Below, piece by piece: positions 2,957-17,343 of a DNA stretch of 64,000 nt. The stretch's first letter is position 1, and each line of letters opens with the position of its first letter. The notes under the pieces are model-generated. The model ran no database searches, was not told the origin of the DNA, and saw only the letters and a program-made list of their open reading frames with translations. A program made the position numbers and the translations under genes. The DNA is from Tabrizicola sp. TH137 (lineage in GTDB: Bacteria > Pseudomonadota > Alphaproteobacteria > Rhodobacterales > Rhodobacteraceae), in the NCBI RefSeq assembly GCF_002855575.1, contig NZ_PKRQ01000004.1, forward strand, positions 62,001-126,000. Reading direction: 5' to 3'.

Positions 2957-3069
2957 TCCGACCGGGCGCCCCCGGGCGCCTGCAACCCGACACCCCGCCA
3001 TGGCCGCCTACAGGCGATACAGCAAAACCAGCCGCAACACGGCGTTGTCTCAAACGATTTAAGAGGAAA

Positions 3070-3083
3070 TGGCGGACCCGGAG
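3070..3083. repeat. attL direct repeat
   Basis: The 14-bp sequence TGGCGGACCCGGAG is identical to 15626-15639. The match extends to 16 of 17 bases if the three preceding bases are included. It is a copy of the last 14 bases of the tRNA-Arg gene (reverse strand), CCA included, with no other tRNA sequence beside it. This is the expected attachment-site remnant at the integrase-side end of an element integrated in a tRNA 3' end. Confidence 0.88.
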
Positions 3084-3241
3084 GCCGCCATTGTGCCGCC
3101 GCATCCTGTCGCAACAAGACGCAGCATAATCCAATGTATCAAGGCATTTGTGGAAAGCCTCGTTTGCGCCTGTCCTTATCCGTTGCAAACCGTCGCATCC
3201 TATGATTCTATCTATGATGGGTAAGAAAAAGGATAGCCAAA

Positions 3242-4534
3242 GTGCCGAAGGTTGCCGCAGAACTTGGACCACTTGACGTGAAGCGCCTTTCCCATCCGGG
3301 CGGCAAGGGTAACGCCATGTTTGCCGTGGGCGGCGTGTCGGGCCTTTACATGCAGGTGACCCCCAACAACGGCAAGACATGGGTGTTGCGGGTTCTGGTG
3401 GGCAACAAGCGCCGAGATATCGGGCTGGGCGGTTTCCCGACCGTCACGCTGGCGCAGGCCCGCGACAAGGCCCGCGAAGCCCGCGACATGATTGCGCGCG
3501 GCGTTGACCCCGTGGAGGAACGGAAGGCCGCGAAAGCCCGCCTAATCCTCGCCCAGCGCAAGGGGCTGCTTTTCAAGGATGCCGTTGATAAGGCCCTTAC
3601 CGCCAAGCTGGACGGATTCAGGAACGAAAAGCACCGCGACCAATGGCGTAGCACCCTCGACGCCTATGCTATCCCTGCGCTGGGCGCGCTGCCCGTGCAA
3701 GAGATAGATACCGCCGCCGTCTTGCGGGTGTTGCAGCCGATCTGGGCAACCAAGACAGAAACAGCAACGCGCCTTCGCGGGCGGATTGAGTCGGTGCTTT
3801 CGTGGGCCACTGCGCAAGGGCATCGGACGGGCGAGAACCCCGCGCGCTGGGCTGGCAACCTCAAGGAACTTCTGCCCGCCCCTTCCAAGGTGGCGACCGA
3901 AAGCAACCATCCGGCCTTGCAACTGGACGACGCCGCGCGATGGATTGCCGATCTGCGGACCCGTGAAGGCTTCCCGGCGCGGGCGCTGGAATTCGCCGCC
4001 CTGACTGCGGCCCGTTCGGGCGAAGTGCGGGGCGCGCGGTGGGATGAGATAGACACGAAACAGGCCCTTTGGATCATCCCGGCCCGTCGGATGAAGATGC
4101 AACGGGAACACCGCGTTCCCCTCACGAAAGAGGCTGTGGCCCTGCTGGAAGCCCTGCCCAAGCTGGACGGCAATCCGCTGGTTTTTCCGGCTGTCCGGGG
4201 CGGGATGCTGTCGGACATGGCGCTTTCCATGACCATGCGCCGGATGCACGCGGCGGATATCGAAAGGGGTGGCGCGGGCTTCATTGACCGCGTGAGTAAG
4301 CGGCCAGCCGTGCCGCACGGGCTTCGCTCGACCTTCCGCGATTGGGTTGCAGAACGGACGACCTACCCCGGCGAAATGGCCGAGGTTGCGCTTGCCCACC
4401 GCATCAGTAATGCCGTGGAAGCCGCATATCGGCGCGGAGATATGGTGGAGAAGCGCCGTGCGATGATGGCGGCTTGGGCGGGCTTCCTGTCGAGGGCTGA
4501 GGTGAAGGGCAATGTCGTGAGGCTGGGTGCATGA
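3242..4534 (+). CDS. int: P4-type site-specific tyrosine integrase
   Basis: The 430-aa protein has an N-terminal DUF4102-like arm-binding domain (about residues 1-95, including GGVSGLYMQVTPNNGKTWVLR), a SAM-like core-binding domain and a C-terminal tyrosine recombinase domain. Catalytic residues can be picked out: R258 in TAARSGEVRGARW, H359 and R362 in HGLRSTFRDW, H386 in LAHRIS and the nucleophile Y396 in AAYRRGD. It starts at GTG 3242 after AAGGA. It lies 158 bp inside attL and reads inward, whereas the tRNA target is at the other end. It should catalyse integration into, and with a directionality factor excision from, the tRNA-Arg gene. Its stop overlaps the next start by 4 bp. Confidence 0.95.
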   Translation: MPKVAAELGPLDVKRLSHPGGKGNAMFAVGGVSGLYMQVTPNNGKTWVLRVLVGNKRRDIGLGGFPTVTLAQARDKAREARDMIARGVDPVEERKAAKARLILAQRKGLLFKDAVDKALTAKLDGFRNEKHRDQWRSTLDAYAIPALGALPVQEIDTAAVLRVLQPIWATKTETATRLRGRIESVLSWATAQGHRTGENPARWAGNLKELLPAPSKVATESNHPALQLDDAARWIADLRTREGFPARALEFAALTAARSGEVRGARWDEIDTKQALWIIPARRMKMQREHRVPLTKEAVALLEALPKLDGNPLVFPAVRGGMLSDMALSMTMRRMHAADIERGGAGFIDRVSKRPAVPHGLRSTFRDWVAERTTYPGEMAEVALAHRISNAVEAAYRRGDMVEKRRAMMAAWAGFLSRAEVKGNVVRLGA

Positions 4535-5151
4535 AGCCGGAAATCTTTGGCGACCAAAGCGAATTTTTCCATCGCGCGGCGCAGTCCATAGCACGACGCC
4601 TGAACTGCGATGTGCAGGTGGTTTATTCCTGCATGGTCGGGCTTGACGCCATATGGAACACGCCTGCCCACTTGGACGCGGTAAATGAAGTCACCACGCA
4701 TTTTAACGAAGCTGCGAGACATGCCAAGCACTTGCACCGCGCCTTGTCGTTAATGACAGAGGCGCAACGCCGGGAACTGACTGTCGCGGGCTGCGTCACT
4801 GTGTTTCAGGTGGAGCATTTAGCCGACGTGCTTGCGCAGGATGTGAGTGACCTTTCAAATTGGTCAAGGACGCGCATCCGCAAGGGCGGGCGCAACCCTG
4901 CCGCATACGACGTAGCCGAGTTGATACGCCGAATATTCCGACGCCAGCGCATCAAGATTACTTTGGGGACCGAGCCTAACTCCGACCAACCGTCAACAGA
5001 TTTTGGAAGGGCTGTGCTTCATTCGCTCGGCGACTTCGGGATAAAGGCAGGATGGCGAGGGCCAGCCCGTGAAGCCTTTGACAAACAACGCGAAATTGAA
5101 TGGAGGCTTTCTAGGATTTGCGAGGCACGGCGGCTTCGTTCTGCGCCATAG
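4531..5151 (+). CDS. hypothetical protein coupled to integrase
   Basis: The 206-aa product is not recognised. The gene begins in an ATGA overlap with the integrase stop, so the two are probably co-translated. The protein is soluble, has no signal peptide or membrane segment, is mostly helical in composition, and has a basic stretch SRTRIRKGGRNP near residue 110 followed by RRIFRRQRIK. These basic clusters would suit nucleic-acid binding, but this is inference. Its place directly after int suggests a role in mobility, immunity or regulation of the element. Confidence 0.7.
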   Translation: MKPEIFGDQSEFFHRAAQSIARRLNCDVQVVYSCMVGLDAIWNTPAHLDAVNEVTTHFNEAARHAKHLHRALSLMTEAQRRELTVAGCVTVFQVEHLADVLAQDVSDLSNWSRTRIRKGGRNPAAYDVAELIRRIFRRQRIKITLGTEPNSDQPSTDFGRAVLHSLGDFGIKAGWRGPAREAFDKQREIEWRLSRICEARRLRSAP

Positions 5152-5275
5152 CAGGCTAATGCAAACTCTGACCAAAGTTTTTCAGAGCCTGCATTTATGA
5201 ACGCGCCACGCATTCGGACAGATTGCTTCAAGAGGTGTTGCAAAGCGCCGCCCACCCTTGAAGCGAGGCCGAAAA

Positions 5276-5461
5276 ATGGAAGCGCAGTTTCTGACCGATT
5301 GGCAAGTTGCACAGCGTTACGGGGTCAACCGCAGCACCCCTTGGCGCTGGGTTAAGACTGACCCGACTTTTCCCAAACCTGTAAGCCTCACCCCCGGCTG
5401 CACCCGCTGGAAGCTGGCAGACATTGAGGCTTGGGAAGTGTCCAAGCTGCAAGCCGCCTAA
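5276..5461 (+). CDS. AlpA-family regulator / excisionase-like protein
   Basis: The 61-aa protein contains a winged-helix MerR/AlpA-type helix-turn-helix: LTDWQVAQRYGVNRST followed by PWRWVKTDPTFPKPV and the closing TRWKLADIEAWE. This is the canonical AlpA/Xis-like pattern, in which a small DNA-binding protein activates integrase or acts as directionality factor. The ATG at 5276 has GAGG at 5265-5268. A TTG at 5258 would add six residues but lacks such a site. Position after the integrase in a P4-type element fits control of excision. Confidence 0.85.
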   Translation: MEAQFLTDWQVAQRYGVNRSTPWRWVKTDPTFPKPVSLTPGCTRWKLADIEAWEVSKLQAA

Positions 5462-5569
5462 GCAAAGCCGCCACCCAGTTACGGGCGGCGGCGATGGGTT
5501 GGCTTGCGGAACAGGCCAAAGAATAGCCCATCCGGCCCGTGACCTCAAACACAATATGAGGCACAGGAC

Positions 5570-5896
5570 ATGAGCAAAGAACGCAAGATTTGGGGGCCTG
5601 CACGCTTCCGCATCACCCGCACCGATGGCACTTCGCACGATATCGTGGTGGCGGGCCGAGTGCATTGGGCGCTGTGGCACCTGATGCAAGAAGGGGCGAA
5701 AGGCTGCACCCCGATTGACCACCCCGGCCCCCGCTGGTCCGCCTACGTCCACACGCTGCGCCATGAGCATCGGGTGGAAATCGAAACCATCCACGAAAAG
5801 CACGGCGCACCCTTTGAAGGGACACACGCCCGATACGTAGCTAGGTCCACGATTGCCCCCAGCTTGGCAATTCCGGCGCATGGGGTGGCGGCATGA
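5570..5896 (+). CDS. hypothetical phage-like protein
   Basis: The 108-aa protein starts MSKERKIWGPARFRITRTDG. It has no signal peptide or membrane segment and no motif I can name. A phrase in the middle (HWALWHLMQEGAKGCTPIDHPGPRWSAYVHTLR) resembles small hypothetical proteins near replication genes of rhodobacterial prophages, but I cannot assign a role. It begins the tightly overlapping gene chain that leads to the primase and helicase (the next gene overlaps by 4 bp), so it is probably part of the replication operon. Confidence 0.7.
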   Translation: MSKERKIWGPARFRITRTDGTSHDIVVAGRVHWALWHLMQEGAKGCTPIDHPGPRWSAYVHTLRHEHRVEIETIHEKHGAPFEGTHARYVARSTIAPSLAIPAHGVAA

Positions 5897-6102
5897 TTGC
5901 ATCCATTCCCAAGAACGCCCGCGAGGAAATCCGGGTATCGGTTGACGACTTCCAAGGCCACCGCCTTTGCAATGTGCGGGTGTGGTATCGGGATGGCGAC
6001 GACTTCCGCCCCGGCAAGCAAGGCATCGCGCTTAGGCTGGACCTTCTGCCCCAGCTTGTGACCGCCCTAAAGGACGCGGCAAAGGAAGGGGGCGAAGCAT
6101 GA
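5893..6102 (+). CDS. small hypothetical protein
   Basis: The 69-aa protein (MIASIPKNAREEIRVSVDDF...) is not recognised. It lacks cysteines arranged for metal binding, transmembrane segments and a signal peptide. It starts in an ATGA overlap with the gene before and ends in an ATGA overlap with the gene after, so it is a member of the translationally coupled chain leading to the primase. Short beta-rich sequence and position suggest a phage/satellite early gene; no function can be stated. Confidence 0.68.
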   Translation: MIASIPKNAREEIRVSVDDFQGHRLCNVRVWYRDGDDFRPGKQGIALRLDLLPQLVTALKDAAKEGGEA

Positions 6103-6377
6103 GTGCAGAAACCCCAACCCATGCGCAGCTTCTAGGACATGTGGGCCTTACCGCCTTGCTGATCCGGGAAGCCGCACAAAAGGCCAAGGCAAGCGACCTT
6201 GCCACGGCAACGCAACTGCTCGACCAGATTAGCGCCGATGTGCTGACCATCGGTAACACGATTGCCGATCTGGCAGACGCCTTGGGGTGCGGCCCTGAGA
6301 CGGTAGAACAAATGCGCGACGGGCTTTCCCGGATCAACGGTTTCCGCGCCTGTCAGAGTTTGGGGGGCCGCGCATGA
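6099..6377 (+). CDS. small helical hypothetical protein
   Basis: The 92-aa protein is rich in Ala and Leu, with long amphipathic helices (AALLIREAAQ-like region and DVLTIGNTIADLADALG), no signal peptide and no membrane span. I do not recognise a family. It shares 4-bp ATGA overlaps with both flanking genes, so it should be translated from the same mRNA as the primase and helicase. Confidence 0.68.
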   Translation: MSAETPTHAQLLGHVGLTALLIREAAQKAKASDLATATQLLDQISADVLTIGNTIADLADALGCGPETVEQMRDGLSRINGFRACQSLGGRA

Positions 6378-6475
6378 TGGCCCTTCGCCTTGCCCGTATG
6401 CGCCGCCTGTGGGGCTTCTCTGGCCCTGTAGCGGGCATCCTTGCCCACCTTGCCTATGGGGAGGGCCGCGAATGA
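6374..6475 (+). CDS. 33-aa small ORF in coupled operon
   Basis: This is a 33-codon reading frame (MMALRLARMRRLWGFSGPVA...). Its ATG overlaps the stop of the preceding gene and its TGA overlaps the ATG of the primase gene, the same 4-bp ATGA junction used throughout this operon. The product would have a basic N-terminus (RLARMRRL) followed by a weakly hydrophobic stretch. The perfect junctions at both ends support translation. It could serve only as a coupling leader for the primase. Confidence 0.5.
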   Translation: MMALRLARMRRLWGFSGPVAGILAHLAYGEGRE

Positions 6476-7338
6476 CGGACGCCCGCACAATCGCCCATGC
6501 GCTGGGCGGGGAATGGCGCGGTAGCTACGGCACCGCCCCTTGCCCTGTCTGTCAGCCGGAACGCCGCGCCGATCAACGCGCGCTGTCCCTTCGGTCGGAA
6601 GGCGGGCGACTGCTGACCTTCTGCCACAAATCCGGGTGCGACTTCCGCGCCGTAACGCAGGCGGCGGGCCTTCCTGCGGATGGCGGCGCGATTGATCTAC
6701 AGGCCGCGCGGGAAGCCGATACCAAGCGCGCCGCATACGAGGCCGAGCAACGCGCCAAAGCCCGCAACCTGTGGGCCGCTGGCAAGCCGATCTGCGGCAC
6801 GAAAGGCGAGGCTTACTTGCGAGGCCGTGGCATCACTTGCCCGCTTCCCCCGTCCCTTCGCTGGGTGGCCGATACCTACCACGGGCCTAGCGCGCGGTGG
6901 GTTTCGGCTATGGTCGCGGATGTTTCGACCGGGGGAGTGCATCGCACCTTCTTTGAGAAGAACGGGGCGCGGCTCGACCGTAACGCCAAGATGATGCAGG
7001 GGCCTTGCGCCGGGGGCGCTGTGGCGCTGTCAGATGCCCAAGGGCCGCTTGTGGTGTGCGAGGGCATAGAGACGGGCCTAAGCCTTCTGAGCGGGCTTCT
7101 GACGGGGCCTGCGACGGTATGGGCGGCGCTTTCCACCTCTGGCATGAGGGCGCTTCACCTTCCCGCCGATCCGGGGGCGCTGATTGTCGCCGCCGATAGC
7201 GATGATGGAGGCGCGGGCCGTGAGGCCGCACAAGCCTTGGCCGAGCGGGCGCACCGCTTGGGGTGGCAAGTGTCGCTCTGGCCTGCCCCCGATGGGATGG
7301 ATTGGAATGACGTGTTGCGCGGGGGGATTGCCGCATGA
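6472..7338 (+). CDS. zinc-ribbon / Toprim-domain primase
   Basis: The 288-aa protein combines an N-terminal zinc-binding module (C24PVC27 ... C51 ... C56) with a C-terminal Toprim domain. The Toprim glutamate lies in LVVCEGIETGLS and the metal-binding acidic pair in LIVAADSDDGG. This is the architecture of small phage/plasmid primase proteins related to the primase half of P4 alpha or RepB-prime. Start at ATG 6472 was chosen over an upstream in-frame start because it forms the ATGA junction typical of this operon and begins the conserved MTDARTIAHALGG sequence. Paired with the next gene it should provide primer synthesis for autonomous replication of the excised element. Confidence 0.85.
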   Translation: MTDARTIAHALGGEWRGSYGTAPCPVCQPERRADQRALSLRSEGGRLLTFCHKSGCDFRAVTQAAGLPADGGAIDLQAAREADTKRAAYEAEQRAKARNLWAAGKPICGTKGEAYLRGRGITCPLPPSLRWVADTYHGPSARWVSAMVADVSTGGVHRTFFEKNGARLDRNAKMMQGPCAGGAVALSDAQGPLVVCEGIETGLSLLSGLLTGPATVWAALSTSGMRALHLPADPGALIVAADSDDGGAGREAAQALAERAHRLGWQVSLWPAPDGMDWNDVLRGGIAA

Positions 7339-8459
7339 ATATCATTCCCCAACCTGTCCCCTTCATTCCCGCCCAACGCACCGCGACCGAAGGCCCAGCG
7401 CCGGAGTTTTTCGCGGCTGCGACCCTTCACGGGCAAGCCGTGCCGGAAAGGCTCTGGCACGTTCAAGACCTTATCCCGGCAAAGACCGTCACCATCCTAA
7501 CGGGCGACGGCGGCACGGGGAAAAGCCTTGCCGCCATTCAACTGGCAACCGCAACCGCGCTGGGCCGCTCTTGGCTTGGACAGGCCACCACCTCCGGCCC
7601 TGCCTTGTTCATTTCCGCAGAGGACGACCGCGACGAACTGCACCGCCGCGTTGCATCACTGGCCCATGCCGAGGACTTCGCGCTTGCCGATCTGGACGCC
7701 CTGACCCTGTGCAGCCTTGCCGGGGATGATGCCCTTCTGTCCGTGCCTGAGGGGGCGGGAAAGACCATGAGGGAAACGCCCCTGTTTCAGAAGGTGGAGG
7801 CATGGGTTGCCGAGCATCGGCCCGCCTTGACGGTTCTAGACACGCTGGCCGATCTGTTCGGCGGCGATGAAATCAACCGGGGGCAGGCGCGGCAATTCAT
7901 CGGGCAATTGCGCGGGCTGGCCTTGAAGCATGAAACGACCGTGTTGCTTCTGGCCCATCCTTCGCTTTCCGGCATGGCGCGGGGCGATGGAAACTCAGGC
8001 TCGACCGCTTGGAATAACTCTGTCCGTTCCCGCCTGTATCTGCGGCGGCAACAGGCCGAGGACGGCGCGGCGGTTGATCCGAATGCCCGCACCCTTGAGG
8101 TGATGAAATCCAACTACGGACCGATAGGGGCAAGCCTTGCCCTTCGGTATCGGGAAGGCGCTTTCTTCTGCGAAGGGAACGGCACCGCCCTAGACGCTCT
8201 GGCCGCGACGGCGAAAGCTGACCGCGTGTTTGTGAAGCTCTTGCGCGAGTGCCACGCAAACGGGCGACGGGTGAACCATACGGGCGGGAATAGCTACGCC
8301 CCCAAGGTGTTTGCCGCCCATCCCGAAGCCGAGGGGGTGACCAAGAACGCCTTCCGCCGCGCGATGGAAACCGCCCTGGCATCGGGTTCCGCTCGGATCG
8401 AAACCGAAGGGCCGCAATCGCGCCGGGTTAGCTACCTTGTGCCGGGGGCTGCATCGTGA
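7335..8459 (+). CDS. RepA-like AAA_25 family replicative helicase
   Basis: The 374-aa RecA-fold ATPase has Walker A GDGGTGKS (residues 57-64), a Walker B-like strand LTVLDT (165-170), and SGSTAWNNSVRSRLYLRR (about 221-238) with the conserved asparagine and arginine seen in RepA of RSF1010 and related phage/plasmid helicases. The family forms hexamers that unwind DNA at an iteron origin. The C-terminal part resembles a winged-helix DNA-binding tail. Its start overlaps the primase stop by 4 bp. Directly downstream lies an array of 11-bp repeats that could be its origin. Confidence 0.85.
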   Translation: MNIIPQPVPFIPAQRTATEGPAPEFFAAATLHGQAVPERLWHVQDLIPAKTVTILTGDGGTGKSLAAIQLATATALGRSWLGQATTSGPALFISAEDDRDELHRRVASLAHAEDFALADLDALTLCSLAGDDALLSVPEGAGKTMRETPLFQKVEAWVAEHRPALTVLDTLADLFGGDEINRGQARQFIGQLRGLALKHETTVLLLAHPSLSGMARGDGNSGSTAWNNSVRSRLYLRRQQAEDGAAVDPNARTLEVMKSNYGPIGASLALRYREGAFFCEGNGTALDALAATAKADRVFVKLLRECHANGRRVNHTGGNSYAPKVFAAHPEAEGVTKNAFRRAMETALASGSARIETEGPQSRRVSYLVPGAAS

Positions 8460-8462
8460 CCC

Positions 8463-8600
8463 TTCAACCCCCCTTCAACCCCCCAAAATGGGCCTTCAAC
8501 CCCCCTTCATCCCTAGGGGTTCAAAGCCTTCAACCCCCCTTCAACCCCCCTTCAACCCCCCTAGCCACACACCCCCCCTTATACCCCCCTAGGGGTTGAA
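8463..8600. repeat. iteron-like array of 11-bp C6/G6 repeats, candidate origin
   Basis: Six exact copies of TTCAACCCCCC start at 8463, 8474, 8495, 8529, 8540 and 8551, with a degenerate copy at 8506. Starts are 11 bp apart or near multiples of it, so copies lie on the same DNA face. Two CCCTAGGGGTT elements (about 8510 and 8587) carry the motif in inverted form. On the minus strand the tract reads as G6 runs separated by TTGAA, a strong G-quadruplex pattern. It fills the gap between the helicase gene and the next gene, the usual position of oriV iterons beside a RepA-type helicase. Function as origin is inferred. Confidence 0.7.
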
Positions 8601-8676
8601 GCCCCCTTTTGGAGGGGCCTTCACCCTAAAAGCCCCGCCTGACCTCACAATTCTCACGACCCAAGGACACCCCAGA

Positions 8677-11016
8677 ATGACCCCCGCAGAACTCGCCGCC
8701 CTTCGCGCCCGCTTCCCCGAACTCGCCGGGATGGGTGCGCCTGCCGCTGCCGACTATCTGGCCCGCCGCTTCCCGGTCGGGCAGACGCCGGAGCAATTCG
8801 CCCCGACCGGGGGCGCAACCTTCACGCCGCAGCAACAGGGCGCAATTGACGCCGCCCGCGCCCGCCGATCTGCGGGGGAGTGGCAGGTGGCGGACGCCAC
8901 ACAAGGCCCTTGGACCAAGTATGCATCGCAGGCCACGGCATCGGGGAAGGCGGTTGAAGTCCAGTTGCCGGATGGAACGCTAGTTGAATTCCCGGCTGGC
9001 ACAGATGAAGCGACCATGCAGAGGGCAATCATGCAGCACCTTGCCGGCACTAAGCCGCCCGCATGGCAGGGTGCGCCAGAGGCGACGCAGCCCAGCGCCG
9101 AAGGGTCTAAAGTAGGCGAAAATACACCCCGCCCGGTCGCAGAAATCCGTTCAATGGTTTTGCGGGCGCTGGGCAAGGCGGAAGGCTCGACGCAGCCCGA
9201 CCAACGGTCGCAGGACATGGCCGCGCGCATCGCAGCCGCTAAGGCCGGGACGTTGACGGTAACGCCTGAGAACGCCGCCCGCGCTGCTGGGGCCGATGCT
9301 GCCGCCCTTACCAACATGCAGGGCGGGAATTCCGACCTCCAAGACGCAAACGGCTTCACGGTCGCAGATTATGCCGCTGCATCAGAACGGGCGCGGGCTG
9401 CTGGGGATACCGCAACGGCAGAGAGCCTTGCACGGCGCGCCGCAGATACCGCGAAGGCAAAGCCCGGCCCTTGGAGCAGGTTTGCCGATGCGATGGCTTC
9501 CGACATTCAAGGCCCGGACGGGATGACCGTGGCCCAACTTTTGGCGAAAGCAGAAGAACAAGACCGCCAAGGCTTTTCCGGCGCAGCAAATGCAACCCGC
9601 GAAAAAGCCGCCGAACTATCCAAGAGCGCGGCAGGCAACCGCACCCCCGGCCTCGTGGGCGGCACCTCCGGCGCAATAGCGGACGGCATCCTTTTCGGCT
9701 TCGGTGATGAATACATGGCGGGCCTTTCCGCCGTTCTGGGGGTGCAGCCTGACGGGCAAGGCGGGGCAAACTGGTTTGACTACTCCAAACCCATCGGGGA
9801 GCGATACAGCACAGCACTAGATGCCCTGCGGGTGGAACAAGAGGCATTCCGGCAGGCCGAACCTGTAGCAGCTATCGGGGGTGAGGTGCTGGGGTCGCTG
9901 CTGGGGCCTGTGAAGGGTGCAGGAGGCTTTATCAATGCGGGGGCCAGCACTGGGGCGCGGATTGGCCGTGGCGCGCTTGTGGGGGCTGCTGGGGCGGGCG
10001 CATATGGCTTCGGTGAGGGAGAGGGCGGGATTGCCAACCGTGCCGTTAGCGGCGCTATAGCCGCGCCTGTGGGCCTTGTCGCGGGCGGGGCGCTCACCGG
10101 GGCTGGGCAGGCCTTCAATGCCCTACGGAACGCGGCAAGCCGCAATCCGGCCCTTAGGGAAGCGATGCCCACCCTTGAGGGACTTCGGGAAACCGCATCG
10201 GGGCTTTATGCCAAGGCGCGGGAAATGGGCGGGGAACTGTCCGAGGGGCAGGTTTCGGCCATGACCAAGGGCATTTCCGCTCGCATCAACGAAGCCGGGT
10301 TTGACCGCCAGCTTCACCCACGCGTTGCCGCCGTTGTGGATCGTCTCACTTCCGAGACGGGGCCGAAGTCGCTTCAAGAAATGGAAATCCTGCGGCGGGT
10401 GGCAGGCAACGCAGCCGCAAGCCTGCAACCTGACGAGCGCCGGATTGCATCGCAGATTATCGACGCCATAGACGACGCGGTTGACGATATGGGCGGGGGT
10501 TCTGCGGCGCTGGGCGCGGCGCGGGAAACATGGTCGCGCCTTCGCCGGATGGAGACGATTGACGAAGCAATCACCAAGGCCGGATTGACCGACGACTTCG
10601 CGGCAGGGCTTCGCAACCAATTCAAAATCCTGTTGCGAAACCCGCGCCGCCTGCGGGGCTTTAGCGAGGCACAGAAGGCCGCTATCCGCGCCGTTGCGAT
10701 GGGTGGCCCCGTATCGAATGCCCTTCGGCACCTTGGCAAACTGCTGTCGCCCACGGGCATATCTGGGGCCGCATTGACGGGCGGTGCGGCTTTCTCTGGG
10801 GCGGGGTTGGGCAGTCTGGCAATTCCTGCCGCTGGGGCGGGCATGACTGCGATTGCAAACGCGCTGACCAAAAGCCGTGCCAATCGGGCCTTGGGTATCG
10901 CCGGAATGGATGATGCCACCCGACGGATTATTGAGGGTTTAGTCAGCCGCCCCAACATCGCAGCGAAGGCCCCCGGTATTCCCGGCCTGCTGGGCTATCA
11001 GGCAACGGCGCAATGA
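8677..11016 (+). CDS. large phage internal/ejection-like protein
   Basis: This 779-aa protein is the largest product of the element. The N-terminal third is Ala/Gln/Thr-rich with repeated modules such as GPWTKYASQAT and GPWSRFADAMAS. Around residue 324 it has GTSGAIADGILFGFGDEYMAG, a glycine-rich segment typical of phage virion proteins delivered with DNA. Long Gly/Ala hydrophobic stretches follow (about 404-475 and 684-745), with a charged helical region between them. The ATG at 8677 is preceded by AAGGA at 8663-8667; an upstream in-frame start would run into the repeat array. It resembles phage internal or DNA-ejection proteins by composition and layout, not by any catalytic motif. A membrane-associated island protein remains possible. 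Confidence 0.7.
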   Translation: MTPAELAALRARFPELAGMGAPAAADYLARRFPVGQTPEQFAPTGGATFTPQQQGAIDAARARRSAGEWQVADATQGPWTKYASQATASGKAVEVQLPDGTLVEFPAGTDEATMQRAIMQHLAGTKPPAWQGAPEATQPSAEGSKVGENTPRPVAEIRSMVLRALGKAEGSTQPDQRSQDMAARIAAAKAGTLTVTPENAARAAGADAAALTNMQGGNSDLQDANGFTVADYAAASERARAAGDTATAESLARRAADTAKAKPGPWSRFADAMASDIQGPDGMTVAQLLAKAEEQDRQGFSGAANATREKAAELSKSAAGNRTPGLVGGTSGAIADGILFGFGDEYMAGLSAVLGVQPDGQGGANWFDYSKPIGERYSTALDALRVEQEAFRQAEPVAAIGGEVLGSLLGPVKGAGGFINAGASTGARIGRGALVGAAGAGAYGFGEGEGGIANRAVSGAIAAPVGLVAGGALTGAGQAFNALRNAASRNPALREAMPTLEGLRETASGLYAKAREMGGELSEGQVSAMTKGISARINEAGFDRQLHPRVAAVVDRLTSETGPKSLQEMEILRRVAGNAAASLQPDERRIASQIIDAIDDAVDDMGGGSAALGAARETWSRLRRMETIDEAITKAGLTDDFAAGLRNQFKILLRNPRRLRGFSEAQKAAIRAVAMGGPVSNALRHLGKLLSPTGISGAALTGGAAFSGAGLGSLAIPAAGAGMTAIANALTKSRANRALGIAGMDDATRRIIEGLVSRPNIAAKAPGIPGLLGYQATAQ

Positions 11017-11159
11017 AGGTTAGGCGGCGCGGGGGGGGTAAATTCCCGCGCCTACCACAAATCAACGACTTAACCCGCCTCTGGCCCCAAGAATACGGAC
11101 ACACGCCAAGGCGCAAATCGCGGGATATCCAATGCCTGAACCTGACCCGCAAGCTATAG
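11013..11159 (+). CDS. 48-aa basic small ORF
   Basis: A 48-codon frame begins in an ATGA overlap with the stop of the 779-aa protein gene and runs into the start of the next zinc-protein gene (overlap 28 bp). The product is strongly basic (MKVRRRGGGKFPRLPQIN... and TPRRKSRD). The overlap at the start supports translation, but no family can be named and chance cannot be excluded. Confidence 0.4.
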   Translation: MKVRRRGGGKFPRLPQINDLTRLWPQEYGHTPRRKSRDIQCLNLTRKL

Positions 11160-11404
11160 CCCCCGGCACCTTTGGGCCGCTGTCGCTGGAAGTGTCCTAC
11201 TTCCTCTGCTGCAACAAGAAACACCGCACCGACCGCGCCAAGCGCATCCTGCACAATCTGCAATGGAAGCGGGAATGGTGCTGCCCGGAGTGCGGGGGAT
11301 ACGTCCCCTTCACCAGGCGGGCCGATGCCACCTATTGCCGTGAAAGCTGCCGGAAAAAGGCCGCTCGACGGCGGCGCGAATGTCGGAAGATTAAGGAGGT
11401 CTAA
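11132..11404 (+). CDS. small zinc-finger protein
   Basis: The 90-aa protein has a CCPECGG knuckle followed by YCRESCRKKAARRRRE. This CxxC ... CxxxC arrangement with a basic tail is common in short phage and plasmid proteins with a treble-clef or zinc-ribbon fold. A second CC pair lies near the N-terminus (FLCCNKKHR). It is likely to bind nucleic acid, but the role is unknown. It is the last gene of the rightward operon. Confidence 0.7.
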   Translation: MPEPDPQAIAPGTFGPLSLEVSYFLCCNKKHRTDRAKRILHNLQWKREWCCPECGGYVPFTRRADATYCRESCRKKAARRRRECRKIKEV

Positions 11405-11458
11405 CCTTTTGAAATCATGAGTAAGGTGCTGGAAAAAGATTAGATTTCTTTCCTCATT

Positions 11459-11800
11459 TTACTGGCACTCTATCCGGGCCAATCCAACCGAAGTCATCCC
11501 AACTGCTGTGTAATGTGTCACGATTATCATGAAGCCGGGATAGGAAAAATCTACATCTGTTCGGATGCCGTTTTTCTCACCTTCACAGGCATAAGCAGAG
11601 CGGGGGCAAATGAAGGTCTGCGTCCAAGTCCCGCTGTCATACTCCAAAATTACCGCTGTTGCGGTGCGGACAACAGTCCCGGTTGTGCGGTCACGGCCAG
11701 CAAGGTCTTCAACGCTCTCAAACCGACAGGTTAGGGACGATGCGAGGGCAGAGGTGGCGCTTACTGCCAATAGCAGGGCGCTTAAAAGGGGTATTCTCAA
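11459..11800 (-). CDS. putative secreted small protein
   Basis: From the TTG at 11800 the 113-aa product begins LRIPLLSALLLAVSATSALASS, a clear Sec signal peptide with an ALA-S cleavage site, followed by a short domain with cysteines in LTCRFESV, TFICPRSAYACEG and IECQ that could form disulfides. An alternative TTG start at 11869 overlaps the upstream stop by 4 bp and would add 23 residues ahead of the signal. I prefer 11800 because of the signal peptide and the AGAGAG upstream. Function unknown; possibly periplasmic. Confidence 0.65.
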   Translation of the reverse strand: MRIPLLSALLLAVSATSALASSLTCRFESVEDLAGRDRTTGTVVRTATAVILEYDSGTWTQTFICPRSAYACEGEKNGIRTDVDFSYPGFMIIVTHYTAVGMTSVGLARIECQ

Positions 11801-11865
11801 GGCGGCTCTCTCTTCGGCAAGCAGACCAAAACGCCCCTTGAGCCTTGCTGAGGTGGTCGATCCAA

Positions 11866-12147
11866 TCAATAGCGTTCTTTGTCCAACTCCATCGCCCGGA
11901 ATGCTTGATATAGCTGCGCCCGCTCTTTGCCGAGCGCATCAATCCGCACCCGCCGAACCTCTTGGAGAATGAGCGAACCGATAAGCAGCACGGCAACAAG
12001 GATAGCACTTTCGCCTTTGGTGATTTCCGGGATGAGCGCGCTGCCCCCCGCGCTGAGACCCAGCGCAACGGCCCAAGTAAGCGTGTTCTCACGCCGCAGG
12101 CTTCGGATTGCTTCAGTTGTTCCGTTGTCGAAGTCGTCAAACTTCAT
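11866..12147 (-). CDS. two-helix membrane protein
   Basis: The 93-aa protein has two hydrophobic segments (TWAVALGLSAGGSALIP and SAILVAVLLIGSLILQEV) joined by a short loop, and a charged C-terminal helix (RIDALGKERAQLYQAFRAMELDKE). It overlaps the HTH gene upstream by 4 bp and leads into the secreted-protein gene, forming a three-gene leftward operon. Small inner-membrane proteins beside a repressor can be superinfection-exclusion or holin-like products; neither is shown here. Confidence 0.68.
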   Translation of the reverse strand: MKFDDFDNGTTEAIRSLRRENTLTWAVALGLSAGGSALIPEITKGESAILVAVLLIGSLILQEVRRVRIDALGKERAQLYQAFRAMELDKERY

Positions 12148-12389
12148 GCTGCACCACCTCTAACGGCCACACCCGGCCCTGCCGAGACGCCCCCCGCCTC
12201 AAGAAACTGCACCCCCTTCGCCTCTAGGGCAATACGCAGGGCTTCTGCGGTTGAGTGCTGCAACCCGCTCTTGCCCGTTTCAAAGCGGTTGACCGTGGTG
12301 AAGGAAACCCCGGCCAATTCGGCCAATTCCCGCACTCCGAGGCCCAGCGCCGCCCGCGCCATCCGTAGCTGTTCCGGCTTCATCTGCAT
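12144..12389 (-). CDS. XRE-family HTH repressor
   Basis: The 81-aa protein is a single HTH_3 domain: LRMARAALGLGVRELAELAGVSFTTVNRFETGKSG, with recognition helix around SFTTVNRFE, followed by a helical EALRIALEAKGVQFLEAGG tail. This compact form is typical of phage Cro/CI-like or island regulators. It faces away from a rightward operon across about 100 bp that contains a palindromic operator pair, so it probably represses the divergent promoter and its own gene. Confidence 0.85.
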   Translation of the reverse strand: MQMKPEQLRMARAALGLGVRELAELAGVSFTTVNRFETGKSGLQHSTAEALRIALEAKGVQFLEAGGVSAGPGVAVRGGAA

Positions 12390-12401
12390 ACCTTGTTACA
12401 G

Positions 12402-12468
12402 TTTTCGCTTACAGGGTAATTGACATGAGCCAATCCCTGCCCCATATATGATACATGGTAAGCGAAAA
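12402..12468. promoter_or_regulatory. divergent promoter with paired 11-bp operators
   Basis: TTTTCGCTTAC at 12402-12412 and its exact reverse complement GTAAGCGAAAA at 12458-12468 flank a sigma70-like promoter reading right: TTGACA at 12420-12425 and TATATG at 12445-12450 (19-bp spacer, longer than ideal). One operator lies just upstream of the -35, the other just downstream of the -10. The arrangement suits looping or cooperative binding by the adjacent HTH protein. A related TTTTCGCTT occurs at 15553-15561. Binding is inferred. Confidence 0.65.
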
Positions 12469-12487
12469 TGCAAACGGAGTAGCAAGA

Positions 12488-12835
12488 ATGGGTATCGACC
12501 GCGCCGCCATCGTTCGCCGTGCTTGGGCTTGGACAAAGTCTGATGCTGCATTCCGTTGGGTCTACGATTGGACCCCCGGCAAGACCTACGGCAGCCGCCG
12601 TGCCACGACGGCAGCAGAGCGCCGCGCCATCTTCGCAAAGCACCTTCGTGCCGCATGGGCTGACTACAGGCTGACCGCCGCCCGTGCTGCCGTGCCTTCC
12701 ATCTTCTCGACCGTGCCGACCGCCGAACTGCGGGCCGAAGTCCTGACACTCGAAAACTGCGATGCTCGCCTTGGGTGGCAGCGTCAGGAACGGCTTTCCA
12801 CCCTGCGCCGGGAACTGGCCCAGCGCGCCGCTTAA
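12488..12835 (+). CDS. hypothetical phage-like protein
   Basis: The 115-aa protein starts MGIDRAAIVRRAWAWTKSD. It is rich in Arg, Ala and Trp with helical character, basic, and without signal peptide. The ATG at 12488 has GGAG eight bases upstream; an earlier in-frame ATG at 12455 would begin inside the promoter/operator. It is the first gene of the operon driven by the divergent promoter, the position of early or lytic-like genes in phages. No family assigned. Confidence 0.7.
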   Translation: MGIDRAAIVRRAWAWTKSDAAFRWVYDWTPGKTYGSRRATTAAERRAIFAKHLRAAWADYRLTAARAAVPSIFSTVPTAELRAEVLTLENCDARLGWQRQERLSTLRRELAQRAA

Positions 12836-12868
12836 CCGCCCGGAATGGGCATATCAGGAGGACCAAGA

Positions 12869-13216
12869 ATGAACCGCCGCGAAACCTTCACCGCACCGCT
12901 GGCACTGGCCGCGCTTGCTGCGCCCAGCTTCGCCGGGGCTTCGACCGAAAGCGAAATCCTGCGGCTCTATGCCGAGTGGAAGGCAACCGAAGCCTTCGCC
13001 AATTCGCACGGCATCACCGATGCGGAGTTTTCCGAAGCCGAAGCCCGGATGGCCGATCTGCAATCCCGCATCCTTGCGATGCCCGCCACGACCGCGCCGG
13101 AACTCGCCGCCAAGGTTGCGATGGTCGCGGACTACGGCGATATCAACGACCGTTCCGTCCCTTCGCTTGCCCTGTGGGCCGAACTGCGGACACTGGTGGG
13201 GGGCGTGACATGCTGA
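12869..13216 (+). CDS. hypothetical prophage-type protein
   Basis: The 115-aa protein begins MNRRETFTAPLALAALAAPSFA, which looks like a signal or Tat-like leader with twin arginines, then a helical domain (EILRLYAEWKATEAFANSHG... AEARMADLQSRILAMPATT). Similar short proteins accompany repressor genes in rhodobacterial prophages, though I cannot name a function. The start follows a perfect AGGAGG at 12856-12861; the in-frame ATG at 12845 lies upstream of that site and is less likely. Confidence 0.7.
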   Translation: MNRRETFTAPLALAALAAPSFAGASTESEILRLYAEWKATEAFANSHGITDAEFSEAEARMADLQSRILAMPATTAPELAAKVAMVADYGDINDRSVPSLALWAELRTLVGGVTC

Positions 13217-13437
13217 ACCGGGAAGCCTACGACGCTACGGAATGGCAGCTTATCCGCGCCGAAGGTATGGCGCTGGCGCTTCATGACCTCGCCCTCGCAT
13301 CGGACAAAGTCACCGATGGTTCGCCGGAAATGAGTGCGCTGCTGACCCTGATGGACGTCCTGCGTGAGGTGATACAGCAGGCGCGCGACTGCCATCAGGC
13401 CGAATGGGATGCGGCGAAGACACCGCAAGCCGCCTGA
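13210..13437 (+). CDS. small acidic helical protein
   Basis: The 75-aa acidic helical product (MLNREAYDATEWQLIRAEGM...) is not recognised. It overlaps the preceding gene by 7 bp and is followed at once by an intrinsic terminator, so it closes the three-gene operon that starts at the divergent promoter. Confidence 0.68.
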   Translation: MLNREAYDATEWQLIRAEGMALALHDLALASDKVTDGSPEMSALLTLMDVLREVIQQARDCHQAEWDAAKTPQAA

Positions 13438-13463
13438 CACTTTCCGACATGCCCAATACTCGG

Positions 13464-13489
13464 AGGCCTCGCCCGGTGCGGGGCCTTTT
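13464..13489 (+). terminator. intrinsic terminator of the small-gene operon
   Basis: A 9-bp stem (13464-13472 with 13478-13486, one G-T pair) with a 5-nt loop is followed by TTTT. It lies 26 bp after the stop of the preceding gene. Sequence from about 13445 to 13489 resembles the second terminator at 14302-14340. Confidence 0.75.
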
Positions 13490-13567
13490 CGTTTCGGGTT
13501 GGTCGAAACCGCTTGATTGCCGTGCGTGCCCTCAGCGACCATTCAAGCAGATTCGGGGGAGATTTTC

Positions 13568-14215
13568 ATGCAAAGGGTTTTGGGCCTTCTCGCTGTTATT
13601 TTCGCAGCTAACGCCGCCACATCAGCAGATGCCACCACCTTCCAGTTTCAAGGCAGCGGCCCGTTGACATTCTTCGGGGCGTTCCAGGCGTTCGATGCAA
13701 ATGATGATGGGCGGATATCCAGTGACGAGGTTTCATCCTACCAAGCCGCCGCTGGGAACTTTTCCGGCGGACCGGGACAATGGGGAGTGTCCGTGAACTC
13801 TAGTGCGTTTGGGGCAAGCGATGCCTTCTTCAGCATCGACTTCGACTACAGACGAAACGCCCTTTCCAGTCTGGCCTTCGGATATTCTCGCGAAGTCGAG
13901 TGCCGACTGTTCCCAAGCGGTGAGTTTGGCGAAACCCGGACTGTGAGTGGATCCGTCTCGGTGTCAGGCCCCAGCACAGTCATTTCCATTTTGCAGCCGG
14001 ATTACTTCAACCAGTTCTATCCGCCAGACTATTGCGAGGCGTTCAGTATCACTCCTTTTTCGTTTGCCTATAGACAGGTTGTGCAAGTGACGGGTGAAGG
14101 GGTGCCATCCGTTGTGCCGCTGCCTGCGGGCATGGTTCTGTTGGTTTCCGGGCTTGGATTGCTCACCCTGACTGGTGCTAAGAGACGCCAAGCACGACCG
14201 CAGGAGATGGCCTGA
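13568..14215 (+). CDS. VPLPA-CTERM sorting-domain protein with EF-hand-like loop
   Basis: The 215-aa exported protein has an N-terminal signal peptide (MQRVLGLLAVIFAANAATSADA), a calcium-loop-like FDANDDGRISSDEV near residue 50, a beta-rich body and the C-terminal sequence VVPLPAGMVLLVSGLGLLTL followed by GAKRR. VPLPA, a hydrophobic helix and a basic end form the VPLPA-CTERM class of PEP-CTERM-like sorting signal, processed by a cognate exosortase not seen in this window. ATG 13568 follows GGGGAG. The gene is flanked by two similar terminators, like a moron cassette, and is probably cargo acting at the cell surface. Confidence 0.85.
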   Translation: MQRVLGLLAVIFAANAATSADATTFQFQGSGPLTFFGAFQAFDANDDGRISSDEVSSYQAAAGNFSGGPGQWGVSVNSSAFGASDAFFSIDFDYRRNALSSLAFGYSREVECRLFPSGEFGETRTVSGSVSVSGPSTVISILQPDYFNQFYPPDYCEAFSITPFSFAYRQVVQVTGEGVPSVVPLPAGMVLLVSGLGLLTLTGAKRRQARPQEMA

Positions 14216-14317
14216 CCCAAAGGCCCTCCCGACACTGTCATAGACGGCCAAGATAAGCGGAACCCGGCAACGACGTGGGTTGCAGCATGGAGGTTTCCGT
14301 CATGCACAGTATCGGAG

Positions 14318-14340
14318 GCCCCGCCCAGCGCGGGGCTTTT
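14318..14340 (+). terminator. intrinsic terminator after VPLPA-CTERM gene
   Basis: A perfect 7-bp GC stem (GCCCCGC at 14318-14324 with GCGGGGC at 14330-14336) with a 5-nt loop is followed by TTTT. The segment from 14302 on resembles 13445-13489 (shared CATGC...TCGGAGGCC and GCGGGGC). Confidence 0.8.
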
Positions 14341-14399
14341 GCTTTTCCGGATGCAGGAAACACCGCCGATCTGCCCCCCCCCGGCTTTCCGTTATCAGG

Positions 14400-14710
14400 G
14401 AAAGGAACAAGGTAAGTTTGCGGTAAGGTGGCCGAACCTTCCGCCGCTGCGCGAGGGGGCGGGATACTGAGATTGCACTAAGGCGAGGGGGCGCGCCTTG
14501 GTTAAGCGATACGCGCGCGCGACAGGGCGCGAAGATTTTTCGGATATCACTTCGCGGGGCGATTGGCTGATCCGCTGGCCCCCAGCATCATCGCGGCGGC
14601 AATGGGCGCGCCCACTAAGGGCAGAGTGACCAATACGCGCGCGCGAGATAGGGGCGGCACCCTAAGATTACCCTGAGGCCGCAGGCCATAGCGCGCCGGG
14701 GTTTGCTCAA
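14400..14710. other. non-coding repeat-rich region
   Basis: No convincing gene lies between the terminator at 14340 and the gene ending at 14724. The stretch contains an exact 14-bp direct repeat ATACGCGCGCGCGA at 14509-14522 and 14633-14646 (124 bp apart), an exact 11-bp repeat GCGAGGGGGCG at 14451-14461 and 14483-14493, and several CTAAGG-like words. The purine-rich runs and alternating CG tracts are unlike the rest of the element. It could be a packaging, origin or partition site; nothing in the sequence decides between these. Confidence 0.5.
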
Positions 14711-14723
14711 TGCAGGAAGGCTT

Positions 14724-15164
14724 CTATGGCGAAGGTAGGTTATTGAGAGTCGCCACATGTGCGCCGACGTATCGGGCCATTTCATCGCTTAGCCTCCCTA
14801 GACGGGGAGAAGCTTTACCTCGCCACGGCTGGAAAAACCGTGGAAGCCACGGCATCAGAGCCATATGCTCCCCGCCGCTTATGACAAATCGAGTAGGCCG
14901 CTCTAGCCCAAGCTCATCGAGTGCGACGAGGTTGCCTATGGCAAGGTCCGTCGGATGGCCGTCGAACACTCTTTTAGTTGTTCCATACGCCACGCGACAA
15001 ACGCGAAGGCCCGTTTCTGTGTTCGCAAAAACGCCAAGGACCAAGAGGGGGCGGGGGTTTGTCTGCCACTTCTCAGAAGGTTGAGTTTCCGGAAAGAAGC
15101 CAGTTACAACATCATAAATCCTCGGTGGACTGTTCACCCACCAAGGCTGGTTACTTGCCACCAT
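14724..15164 (-). CDS. possible PemK/MazF-fold toxin-like protein
   Basis: From ATG 15164 the 146-aa product reads MVASNQPWWVNSPPRIYDVV, then PRPLLVLGVFAN, LRVCRVAYGTTK, DLAIGNLVALDELGL and ERPTRFVIS. The order RP-LVL, VAYGT, I..A..GL, PTRF matches short proteins related to the PemK/MazF toxin fold. The match is by eye and the catalytic arginine and threonine are not certain. It overlaps the preceding small gene by 14 bp, consistent with a coupled two-gene module next to attR. Base composition is lower in GC than in neighbours. A hypothetical protein unrelated to toxins remains possible. Confidence 0.6.
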   Translation of the reverse strand: MVASNQPWWVNSPPRIYDVVTGFFPETQPSEKWQTNPRPLLVLGVFANTETGLRVCRVAYGTTKRVFDGHPTDLAIGNLVALDELGLERPTRFVISGGEHMALMPWLPRFFQPWRGKASPRLGRLSDEMARYVGAHVATLNNLPSP

Positions 15165-15405
15165 CCAGAGCAACCCACTTGCCGTTGCCGAATCCGAACT
15201 CTTCGGCAAGGTTGCCCTGCCAAGCCTTAATGTCTTTGACCTTCACTTCGTCAAAGTCGCACGATGCTTCGGGCGGGAACGAAGTTGGCTTGCTGCCACG
15301 TCCGCCACCCGTGAAGGCTATCTTTTGGACTGCCATTGCTCGCTCCGACCGCAACACCCGAATCACCTTGACAGGTAAACCTGCGGCAAAATTGGATTTT
15401 TTCAT
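15151..15405 (-). CDS. small protein, possible antitoxin partner
   Basis: The 84-aa product is unrecognised. It may start at ATG 15405 (MKKSNFAAGLPVKV) or at ATG 15336 (MAVQKIAFTGGGRGSKP), the latter preceded by GGAG. The C-terminal part is acidic (CDFDEVKVKDIKAWQGNLAEEFGFG), a feature compatible with neutralising a basic partner. It lies immediately upstream of and overlaps the toxin-like gene by 14 bp, the order usual for antitoxin then toxin. The antitoxin role is inferred from context only. Confidence 0.55.
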   Translation of the reverse strand: MKKSNFAAGLPVKVIRVLRSERAMAVQKIAFTGGGRGSKPTSFPPEASCDFDEVKVKDIKAWQGNLAEEFGFGNGKWVALDGGK

Positions 15406-15625
15406 TCTGCGGACCCTTTCCGCTGTGTTGATCTACCCACAAACCAACGTTTCTGTCCACTTTACGTTTACAAGACGCATATGGGGCGTATCCCCAGTGC
15501 ATCAAACTGTAACGACGGAAATGTGAGAATGTTTCCCCCGACTGACCAAGCGTTTTCGCTTTGATGGGTTTTATGTTGGGTATCGGACAAGTCAGCCCGA
15601 AAAATCCAACAATATCAAGGGTAAG

Positions 15626-15639
15626 TGGCGGACCCGGAG
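15626..15639. repeat. attR direct repeat inside tRNA 3' end
   Basis: The 14-bp sequence matches 3070-3083 exactly and forms the terminal 14 bases of the tRNA-Arg gene, including the encoded CCA. The intact tRNA lies on the chromosomal side, so integration preserved the tRNA. Confidence 0.88.
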
Positions 15640-15702
15640 CGATTCGAACGCCCGACCCCCAGATTCGTAGTCTGGTGCTCTATCCAGCTGAGCTACGGGT
15701 CC
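15626..15702 (-). tRNA. tRNA-Arg (anticodon ACG), integration target
   Basis: The reverse strand folds into a complete cloverleaf of 77 nt including encoded CCA. The acceptor stem is GGACCCG/CGGGTCC, the D arm GCTC/GAGC, the anticodon arm CCAGA-CTACGAA-TCTGG with anticodon ACG, the variable loop 5 nt, and the T arm GGGCG-TTCGAAT-CGCTC with one G-U pair. The discriminator base is G. It decodes CGN arginine codons. Its 3' end carries the attR core of the element to the left. Confidence 0.96.
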
Positions 15703-15761
15703 GTCGTGGCGGTGCGTTTAGCCCCCGCCTTCGCGGGGCGCAAGGGGAAAATCATGCGACC

Positions 15762-17183: not shown

Positions 17184-17343
17184 GAAAAACCGCCCCCTGC
17201 GCTGCCCTGACTGAGATACGCATCCCCCCTCCCCGCCCGCAACCCCTCCGACAGGGAAAGACAGGCCGGTTCGGCATGGATCAGCGCAGGAGTATCAAAG
17301 CTCTGGCCGGAAAGACAGCCGCGCCGCCCGCTTGCCCCGCGCG

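Follow-up and report, generated by a model that had tools for sequence, protein, structure and literature searches.

What does a small chromosomal island that has its own integrase, AlpA, replication and repressor genes do with one large gene of the phage DNA-ejection type? The island that raises this question lies in a 64,000-nucleotide stretch of the Tabrizicola sp. TH137 genome (contig NZ_PKRQ01000004.1, positions 62,001 to 126,000; hereafter the window), taken from an assembly of 4.66 Mb in 38 contigs. The original prediction had placed a possible undescribed phage satellite at positions 5276–14215 of the window. The locus is a discrete element integrated in a transfer RNA (tRNA) gene, tRNA-Arg. 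We consider it probable that this element is a satellite of P22-like podophages, akin to the phage-inducible chromosomal islands (PICIs), whose own ejection protein would be loaded into helper-made particles and aid the entry of DNA.

The integrated island and its largest gene

The island spans positions 3070–15639 (12.6 kb) and is bracketed by 14-bp direct repeats, the attachment (att) sites, whose starts are 12,556 bp apart. The attL core TGGCGGACCCGGAG at 3070–3083 is repeated exactly at 15626–15639, where the attR core lies inside the 3' end of the integration target, a tRNA-Arg(acg) gene found by ARAGORN on the minus strand (15626–15702). The interval first proposed is too short, since the integrase and both att sites lie outside it. 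The gene of the tyrosine integrase (3242–4534, plus strand; 430 amino acids (aa); PF22022, 9e-29; PF13356, 4e-20; PF00589, 1e-13) adjoins the left att repeat. A genome of the same genus, G104, is free of the element and has both flanks side by side at a tRNA-Arg(acg) gene: its right flank corresponds to window positions 15617–17285 (90% identical) and its left flank to positions 1–1530 (87%), and on the attL side positions 3056–3083 also align with this empty site. As the flanks are joined in G104, the window genome is longer there by 14.1 kb, which comprises the element and 1.5 kb to the left of it.

All of the genes named in the original prediction were recovered using Pfam, PHROGs and Tandem Repeats Finder (TRF). 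On the plus strand, the integrase is followed by an AlpA-like regulator or excisionase (5276–5461; PF05930, 3e-6; phrog_66 excisionase, 2e-7), a winged-helix HTH_91 protein that serves as the backbone marker of the family (5570–5896; PF22324, 4e-33), a DNA primase (6472–7338; Toprim_3, 3e-21; DUF7146, 4e-21; phrog_510), a RepA-type AAA_25 helicase/ATPase (7335–8459; PF13481, 2e-33; phrog_906, 2e-30), a repeat array and the gene of a 779-aa protein (8677–11016). A helix-turn-helix (HTH) repressor is encoded on the minus strand (12144–12389; PF13560 (HTH_31), 2e-8; cluster F2). The expected absence of capsid, portal, terminase, tail and conjugation genes was borne out in scans of 19 window genes against PHROGs and 18 against Pfam, the latter covering all of these but the 75-aa open reading frame (ORF) at 13210, and a 33-aa ORF (6377–6475) lying outside both. 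With the exception of the 779-aa protein, there was no significant match to head, tail or packaging families, and no capsid, portal, terminase (including its small subunit) or lysis gene was recognised in the element. Relaxase and conjugation families were likewise absent from the 18 genes scanned with Pfam, and a conjugative or mobilisable element was rejected for lack of a relaxase among them.

The 779-aa protein, scanned as an 806-aa frame from 8596, matched phrog_21712 (5e-21) and phrog_5880 (2e-18), and had no match in Pfam. A tblastn search of 50,697 phage records returned five, two of which represent one phage. The homologue in Vibrio phage 1.275.O, gp17, directly precedes a P22-like tailspike gene. 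In Sulfitobacter phage NYA-2014a, SUFP_018 stands behind a gene annotated as endolysin where the virion operon ends, and a single gene separates it from a tail fibre gene. In EBPR podovirus 2, gp29 is the terminal gene of its operon, behind a peptidoglycan hydrolase. In podovirus ctXG6705 the homologue comes after a stabilization protein, an acetyltransferase and three further genes. The corresponding gene order in P22 is 14, 7, 20, 16, then other genes and then the tail spike. Because the homologues stand at the ejection-gene end of P22-like operons, last in the ejection set and near the tail spike or fibre, we assign the 779-aa protein to the position of P22 gp16, the last of the ejection slots. 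The claim that the largest gene is phage-ejection-like is thus consistent with the place of its homologues in named phages, and homology does not set the protein outside the virion proteins. The three P22-like podophages NYA-2014a, EBPR podovirus 2 and 1.275.O differ from the island in having a phage's terminase, portal, head and tail genes.

The PHROGs name of phrog_21712, "major head protein", would make the product a capsid protein. We set this label aside because NYA-2014a has a second gene of that name, SUFP_028, within its head-gene cluster. SUFP_018 itself (L086, 12005–13552) is annotated as "major head protein" and yet sits at the ejection end of the operon; it is probably mis-annotated, and its annotation is perhaps the source of the phrog_21712 name.

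When P22 gp16 was compared with the 779-aa protein, residues 5–34 of gp16 aligned weakly with an N-terminal stretch of 30 residues (E 0.013, probability 3%), and a 19-row alignment matched gp16 in just 13 columns. The AlphaFold2 model of the whole protein had a mean predicted local distance difference test score (pLDDT) of 50.6 and was uninformative in Foldseek. A model of residues 307–779 built from 22 sequences reached a pLDDT of 68.8, and its BFVD matches at E ≤ 0.001 were seven proteins, four of them uncharacterised Caudovirales proteins and three nameless.

The nearest named relative of the island, L006 of Rhodobacter sp. CACIA14H1, is 92% identical over the 779-aa protein. The ratio of nonsynonymous to synonymous substitution rates (dN/dS) between the two was 0.154 over this gene as a whole and 0.071 over the 458 C-terminal codons, compared with 0.073 for RepA, 0.127 for the primase and 0.147 for the integrase; the value of 2.3 for the PC4-like gene, at a dS of 0.02, reflects too few changes to be interpreted. 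Given this purifying selection, the 779-aa gene is taken as a working gene. Its strongly constrained C-terminal half is the part held in common with phages. No plasmid relative of the protein was found, and when the whole element was compared with plasmids, nine records matched, the matches among the eight listed being confined to the tRNA end.

Related elements and the slot behind the replication genes

The gene set recurs in other rhodobacterial genomes, where a search for it had been suggested: 21 elements combine the backbone with an ejection-type gene, 14 of them found through searches with the 779-aa protein and 7 through a backbone search. The 779-aa protein matched 5 of 295 genomes of the family, and an order-wide search that used an alignment of five proteins gave matches in 24 of 390, the window genome (G000) being included in both counts. 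By class, these 24 genomes comprise 13 of satellite type, 4 of prophage type (G351, G222, G413 and G467), 4 without a clear class (loci L070, L077, L078 and L080) and 3 unexamined (G311, G504 and G577). A class-wide search matched 7 of 385 genomes, G000 again included, and the three new places fetched from it (L083–L085) were not of satellite type by their markers. The 14 elements are those of the 13 satellite-type genomes and L006, as judged by marker proteins and ORF clustering.

A common order runs through these 14 elements, of which L006 and L076 are visible only in part: integrase, AlpA, HTH_91 or a substitute, replication gene(s) (primase and/or RepA, or another replication gene), the ejection-type gene and an opposite-strand repressor. 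A relative of the repressor is present in 13 of them, the contig of L006 stopping short of that position, and L006–L009 keep the gene order of the window element. In line with the predicted absence of capsid and terminase genes from close homologues of the island, tblastn with the terminase, portal, scaffold, major head and gp10-like proteins from three podophages gave no match in any of the 14; unrelated head genes would be overlooked by this marker set. Prophages with the same late gene (L069, L073, L075 and L079) did match those head and terminase markers, some of which were supplied by L010, a P22-like prophage with a homologue.

The HTH_91 search gave 74 rows from 64 of 390 genomes, and the best 51 rows were examined. 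Among these, 40 further loci (L119–L158) had no head or terminase marker match, and seven of them carry ejection-type genes (L119, L120, L122, L125, L127, L131 and L140). By labels assigned by hand, the ejection-type gene occurs in 18 of the 51 loci, namely in 17 of the 24 best-scoring and in 1 of the other 27, a distribution that is biased because the profile was built from elements bearing the ejection gene; it is carried by 6 of the 13 best-scoring loci that were not first found via the ejection protein.

Pairs of tRNA-borne att sites were found in 8 of 24 loci tested. Five elements with an ejection gene are bounded in this way: that of the window (12.6 kb), L007 (12.2 kb), L066 (13.9 kb), L068 (16.5 kb) and L072 (13.1 kb). 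The PHROG scan of their 82 non-ejection proteins showed no virion family among the 25 listed of 65 matched families. Meanwhile, in viral contigs the primase found 6 loci and RepA 76. Of the 20 inspected among these 82, L165 has an integrase, AlpA and primase and L162 an integrase, primase and RepA, neither of which proves a virion.

We regard the variation of the slot behind the replication genes as the most telling result. It is filled by four protein types, the commonest being phrog_21712/5880. The second, in L122, L125 and L131, has its phage relative in Paracoccus phage KLEP18-1, whose structural protein gp21 is encoded before the tail fibres. L140 has a phrog_684 protein (3e-130), a homologue of which, SPN1S_0019, is found two small genes ahead of the tail spike in a Uetakevirus. 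L081 has a phrog_26400 "DNA ejection protein"; its single phage relative belongs to Bradyrhizobium phage ppBeUSDA76-2, where a small gene and a lysozyme gene stand between it and a tail fibre gene. In BLAST comparisons the four types match over at most 88 residues: L072 matches L131 over 30 residues (60%), L125 over 88 (28%) and L081 over 30 (43%), L081 matches the window protein over 30 (50%), and L140 matches none. Judged by these alignments the types do not form a single family over their full length, and may share short motifs or a remote ancestry. The number of genes varies as well, some elements having two or three. Several elements have the last ejection protein alone, and L074, L076 and L119 have three ejection-type genes each. 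In L074 and L119, a gp7-type "DNA ejection" protein of phrog_598 is joined by another protein of ejection type and one of phrog_5880. L076 has a virion protein of phrog_6121, an internal virion protein of the transglycosylase type and one of phrog_5880, together with an acetyltransferase.

An experimentally mobilised island with such a module is already known. EcCIMP1, a 19,963-bp PICI of E. coli MP1, was observed as circles only in the presence of phage Kapi1 and is transduced by it; no structural, capsid or terminase genes are reported for it and a candidate packaging role is proposed for the module genes (PMC11773190). The genes that we find behind its primase include those for a DUF2824 protein of phrog_651, a DNA ejection protein of phrog_598, a gp20-like protein of phrog_917 and a transglycosylase "DNA transfer protein" of phrog_770. 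By sequence, this module, at L160 5481–10649, is a full P22-type ejection set with genes of the gp14, gp7, gp20 and gp16 slots, despite the lack of structural genes in the published account. The genes of Kapi1, a Lederbergvirus, run in the same order, with identities to the EcCIMP1 set of 83% for gp14, 57% for gp7 and 26% and 24% for the last two over the aligned parts. At least 80% of the 8.8-kb primase–ejection segment of EcCIMP1 is present in 65 of 5,426 E. coli genomes.

Like the window element, EcCIMP1 has an integrase, AlpA and a primase followed by podophage ejection-type genes, and occupies a tRNA-gene site. Unlike it, EcCIMP1 is gammaproteobacterial and has four ejection genes instead of one, and what it shares with the Rhodobacterales elements in blastp is limited to the integrase and a portion of the primase. 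Excision and transduction of EcCIMP1 were demonstrated experimentally. EcCIMP1 is proof that ejection genes, whatever their role there, can reside in a mobile satellite with a P22-like helper. With such a module already known from a mobilised PICI, the window element is a variant and not a new kind. The original term "undescribed" agrees with the open-access full texts searched. Those full texts, which exclude most subscription papers, gave no description of satellites with ejection genes beyond the remark on EcCIMP1; in PMC6893505 the term "ejection protein" is confined to the reference list.

Repeat array, repressor switch and remaining genes

The repeat array behind repA (8460–8562; TRF score 74, period 11, 9.4 copies) is made of C-rich CCCTTCAA-type units, and inverted arms of a hairpin (8479–8503 and 8592–8616) extend the feature to 8616. 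By eye, the array is nearly identical in L006, and L007 and L072 show, in the corresponding position, a hairpin and repeats that differ but are C-rich too. We regard the array as the putative replication origin of the island.

The divergent promoter region of the repressor gene and the genes to its right (12402–12468) holds the 11-bp inverted repeat TTTTCGCTTAC/GTAAGCGAAAA, whose arms, at 12402 and 12458, are exact. With up to one mismatch, the window contains three matches to the arm where 0.32 would be expected; the third is a one-mismatch site within the 779-aa gene. This repeat is a likely operator. The first gene to the right of the switch (12455–12835, plus strand) belongs to cluster F6, together with longer WYL_2-type proteins of the family; the WYL_2 matches of its relatives in L007–L009 are under the Pfam cut-off.

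Between the core genes, the plus strand encodes orf206 (4531–5151; no Pfam or PHROG family), which shares 38–44% identity with genes that follow the integrase in L007 and L008, a 69-aa PC4-like (p15) protein (5893–6102; PF02229, 2e-12), orf92 (6099–6377; 95% identical in L006, no significant Pfam or PHROG family) and, after the 779-aa gene, a 90-aa Cys-rich putative zinc-finger protein (11132–11404) with related ORFs in L006, L072, L074, L076 and L081. Two minus-strand ORFs precede the repressor on the map: one for a secreted-type protein with a signal-peptide-like start (11459–11869; by hydropathy, no Pfam or PHROG family) and one for a 93-aa protein with hydrophobic segments (11866–12147; no significant family). 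Further to the right on the plus strand are a 115-aa protein with a signal-like start (12869–13216; cluster F16, with L074 and L081), a 75-aa protein with a weak match to phrog_22497 (13210–13437; 0.0075) and, as cargo, a secreted-type protein with an EF-hand-like motif, for which the matches are below cut-off, and a VPLPAG C-terminal anchor (13568–14215). Two minus-strand ORFs (14724–15209 and 15151–15405) have no Pfam or PHROG family. The PADLOC scan of 10 window ORFs showed no defence system.

Cargo differs between the elements. In L009, the stretch from the ejection gene to the repressor (11942–15393) encodes a BCCT transporter and a protein that combines LuxR-type with alpha/beta-hydrolase domains. 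Staphylococcal-nuclease-like proteins are found repeatedly within or close to the elements (L007, 16295–16801; L008, 15954–16517), with further matches in L072, L119–L121, L126–L128, L140 and L149. A DUF5681 protein, which we presume might be related to packaging, is found in part of the family and had one phage-record match, without annotation.

Just outside attL, the stretch of about 1.5 kb at 1531–3069 is likewise absent from the G104 empty site and may be a remnant of another insertion. It contains an ORF that we read as glycosyltransferase-type (1736–2956), and the left flank beside attL (1736–3060) had no match in three relatives. Elsewhere in the window, a tandem array of 27-bp units in a 135-bp period lies at 27765–28524 (TRF score 938). 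A search of the window's genome for phrog_2, the large terminase subunit (TerL) family, gave a single match (G000:C22:325777-326445; E 4e-12), which could perhaps belong to a gene transfer agent.

Satellite types and competing explanations

Capsid-forming PICIs have their own capsid and packaging genes, and no such genes were recognised among the window genes scanned. Gram-negative PICIs such as EcCICFT073 likewise have an integrase, AlpA, a replication module and att sites within about 12–15 kb (PMC6092414); the window element and its relatives show this order, and the 12,556 bp of the former agree with this size. Since PICIs are defined there as free of phage structural genes and the window element keeps one virion-type ejection gene, we file it as PICI-like and not as a PICI. 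The P4-like satellites (PMC8628076) share with it an integrase, AlpA-like genes and a primase, but its 18 genes scanned had no Pfam match to Psu, delta, epsilon or alpha, sid being outside that scan. The small PICMI elements (PMC10803314) also have an integrase, AlpA and a primase and no capsid remodelling gene; they lie beside fis, encode a DUF3987/DUF5906 primase and have a type element of 6,110 bp, whereas the window element has a tRNA-Arg site and a Toprim_3/DUF7146 primase.

If the island is a satellite of P22-like podophages, infection by a helper would open the repressor switch, AlpA and the integrase would excise the island, and the primase and RepA would replicate it from the repeat array. 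Helper proteins would build and fill the particle, satellite DNA being packaged in helper heads, and the 779-aa protein would be loaded into the particles, replacing or beside the last ejection protein of the helper. At the next infection it would help the satellite DNA across the cell envelope. The att borders, the empty site in a relative, the recurring gene order and the purifying selection all argue for the phage satellite that had been predicted. By analogy, a second role in protecting linear DNA is possible: the ejection protein gp44 of phage 80alpha reportedly binds and protects genome ends.

Several results weigh against this reading. Neither a helper nor excision, replication or a particle was observed. 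No full-length sequence link of the 779-aa protein to P22 gp16 was found, nor a solved structure that matches it in Foldseek searches with the predicted models. The only phage relative of the L081 type does not stand directly before a tail gene, and the slot assignment of that type therefore rests on its PHROG name. Of the 51 wider-backbone loci examined, 33 had no ejection gene recognised by tblastn; five of these 33 are shorter than 13 kb, and most of their large ORFs lay outside the PHROGs scan. Such integrase–AlpA–HTH_91 loci may be satellites of phages of another type, or their virion genes may have escaped recognition. In IMG/VR, the 779-aa protein itself found no relative and its profile retrieved 15 contigs, of which 11 had phage virion markers and the other 4 none, so that no such element with an ejection gene was observed there. 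The gp10-like podophage marker was present in none of 18 element-bearing genomes tested, including that of the window (all 20 bearing genomes except G388 and that of L006), and in four of six prophage-type control genomes, three of those four being sources of query rows. As no resident podoprophage of the gp10 type was detected in these 18 genomes, the helpers may be lytic or of other types.

A satellite might instead use its ejection-type protein as a weapon or shield against the helper or rivals, through dominant-negative ejection or entry exclusion, without needing it for its own delivery. The low identity of the last two EcCIMP1 ejection proteins to those of Kapi1 (24–26%, against 83% for gp14) is competitor-like, and the elements that have the last ejection protein alone would fit as well, but the three-gene sets of L074, L076 and L119 and the four-gene set of EcCIMP1 resemble working modules, and the phage-shared C-terminal half of the window protein is strongly constrained; we consider this explanation unlikely. 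Somewhat more doubtful still is an integrative element that moves by generalised transduction, a gene transfer agent or conjugation in trans and holds the virion-type gene as passenger cargo. That no helper is known, that 33 of 51 backbone loci have no recognised ejection gene and that other cargo varies among the elements would all agree with it, whereas the place behind the replication genes recurs and is occupied by differing types of phage ejection or late virion proteins, and the Pfam-scanned window genes include no relaxase or conjugation family. A decayed prophage that has retained one late gene is very improbable. Such a remnant could leave a single late-type gene beside integrase, repressor and replication genes, and P22-like prophages with a homologue do exist in the same family (L010, L069, L073, L075 and L079). 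It would not account for the same reduced order in 21 elements without a match to the head and terminase markers used, for the purifying selection on the late gene or for the 12.2–16.5 kb of the five att-bounded cases.

The PICI-like satellite with an ejection protein of its own thus stays the reading that we prefer, and it can be extended tentatively. Podophage satellites of Alpha- and Gammaproteobacteria may take over entry by supplying ejection proteins, the slot being a swap site for podophage ejection genes; head, tail and packaging would be left to the helper, and the particle would behave as the satellite's own at the next infection. In descriptions of known satellites, what they hijack is capsid size, packaging or late transcription. 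A family retaining ejection genes alone would reveal a different control point, the entry of DNA, and this could explain why a working PICI, EcCIMP1, has no recognised packaging module. The combination of an integrase–AlpA–primase island with a lone podophage ejection gene offers a handle for finding more of these elements, and the EcCIMP1/Kapi1 pair makes the idea of entry control testable now.

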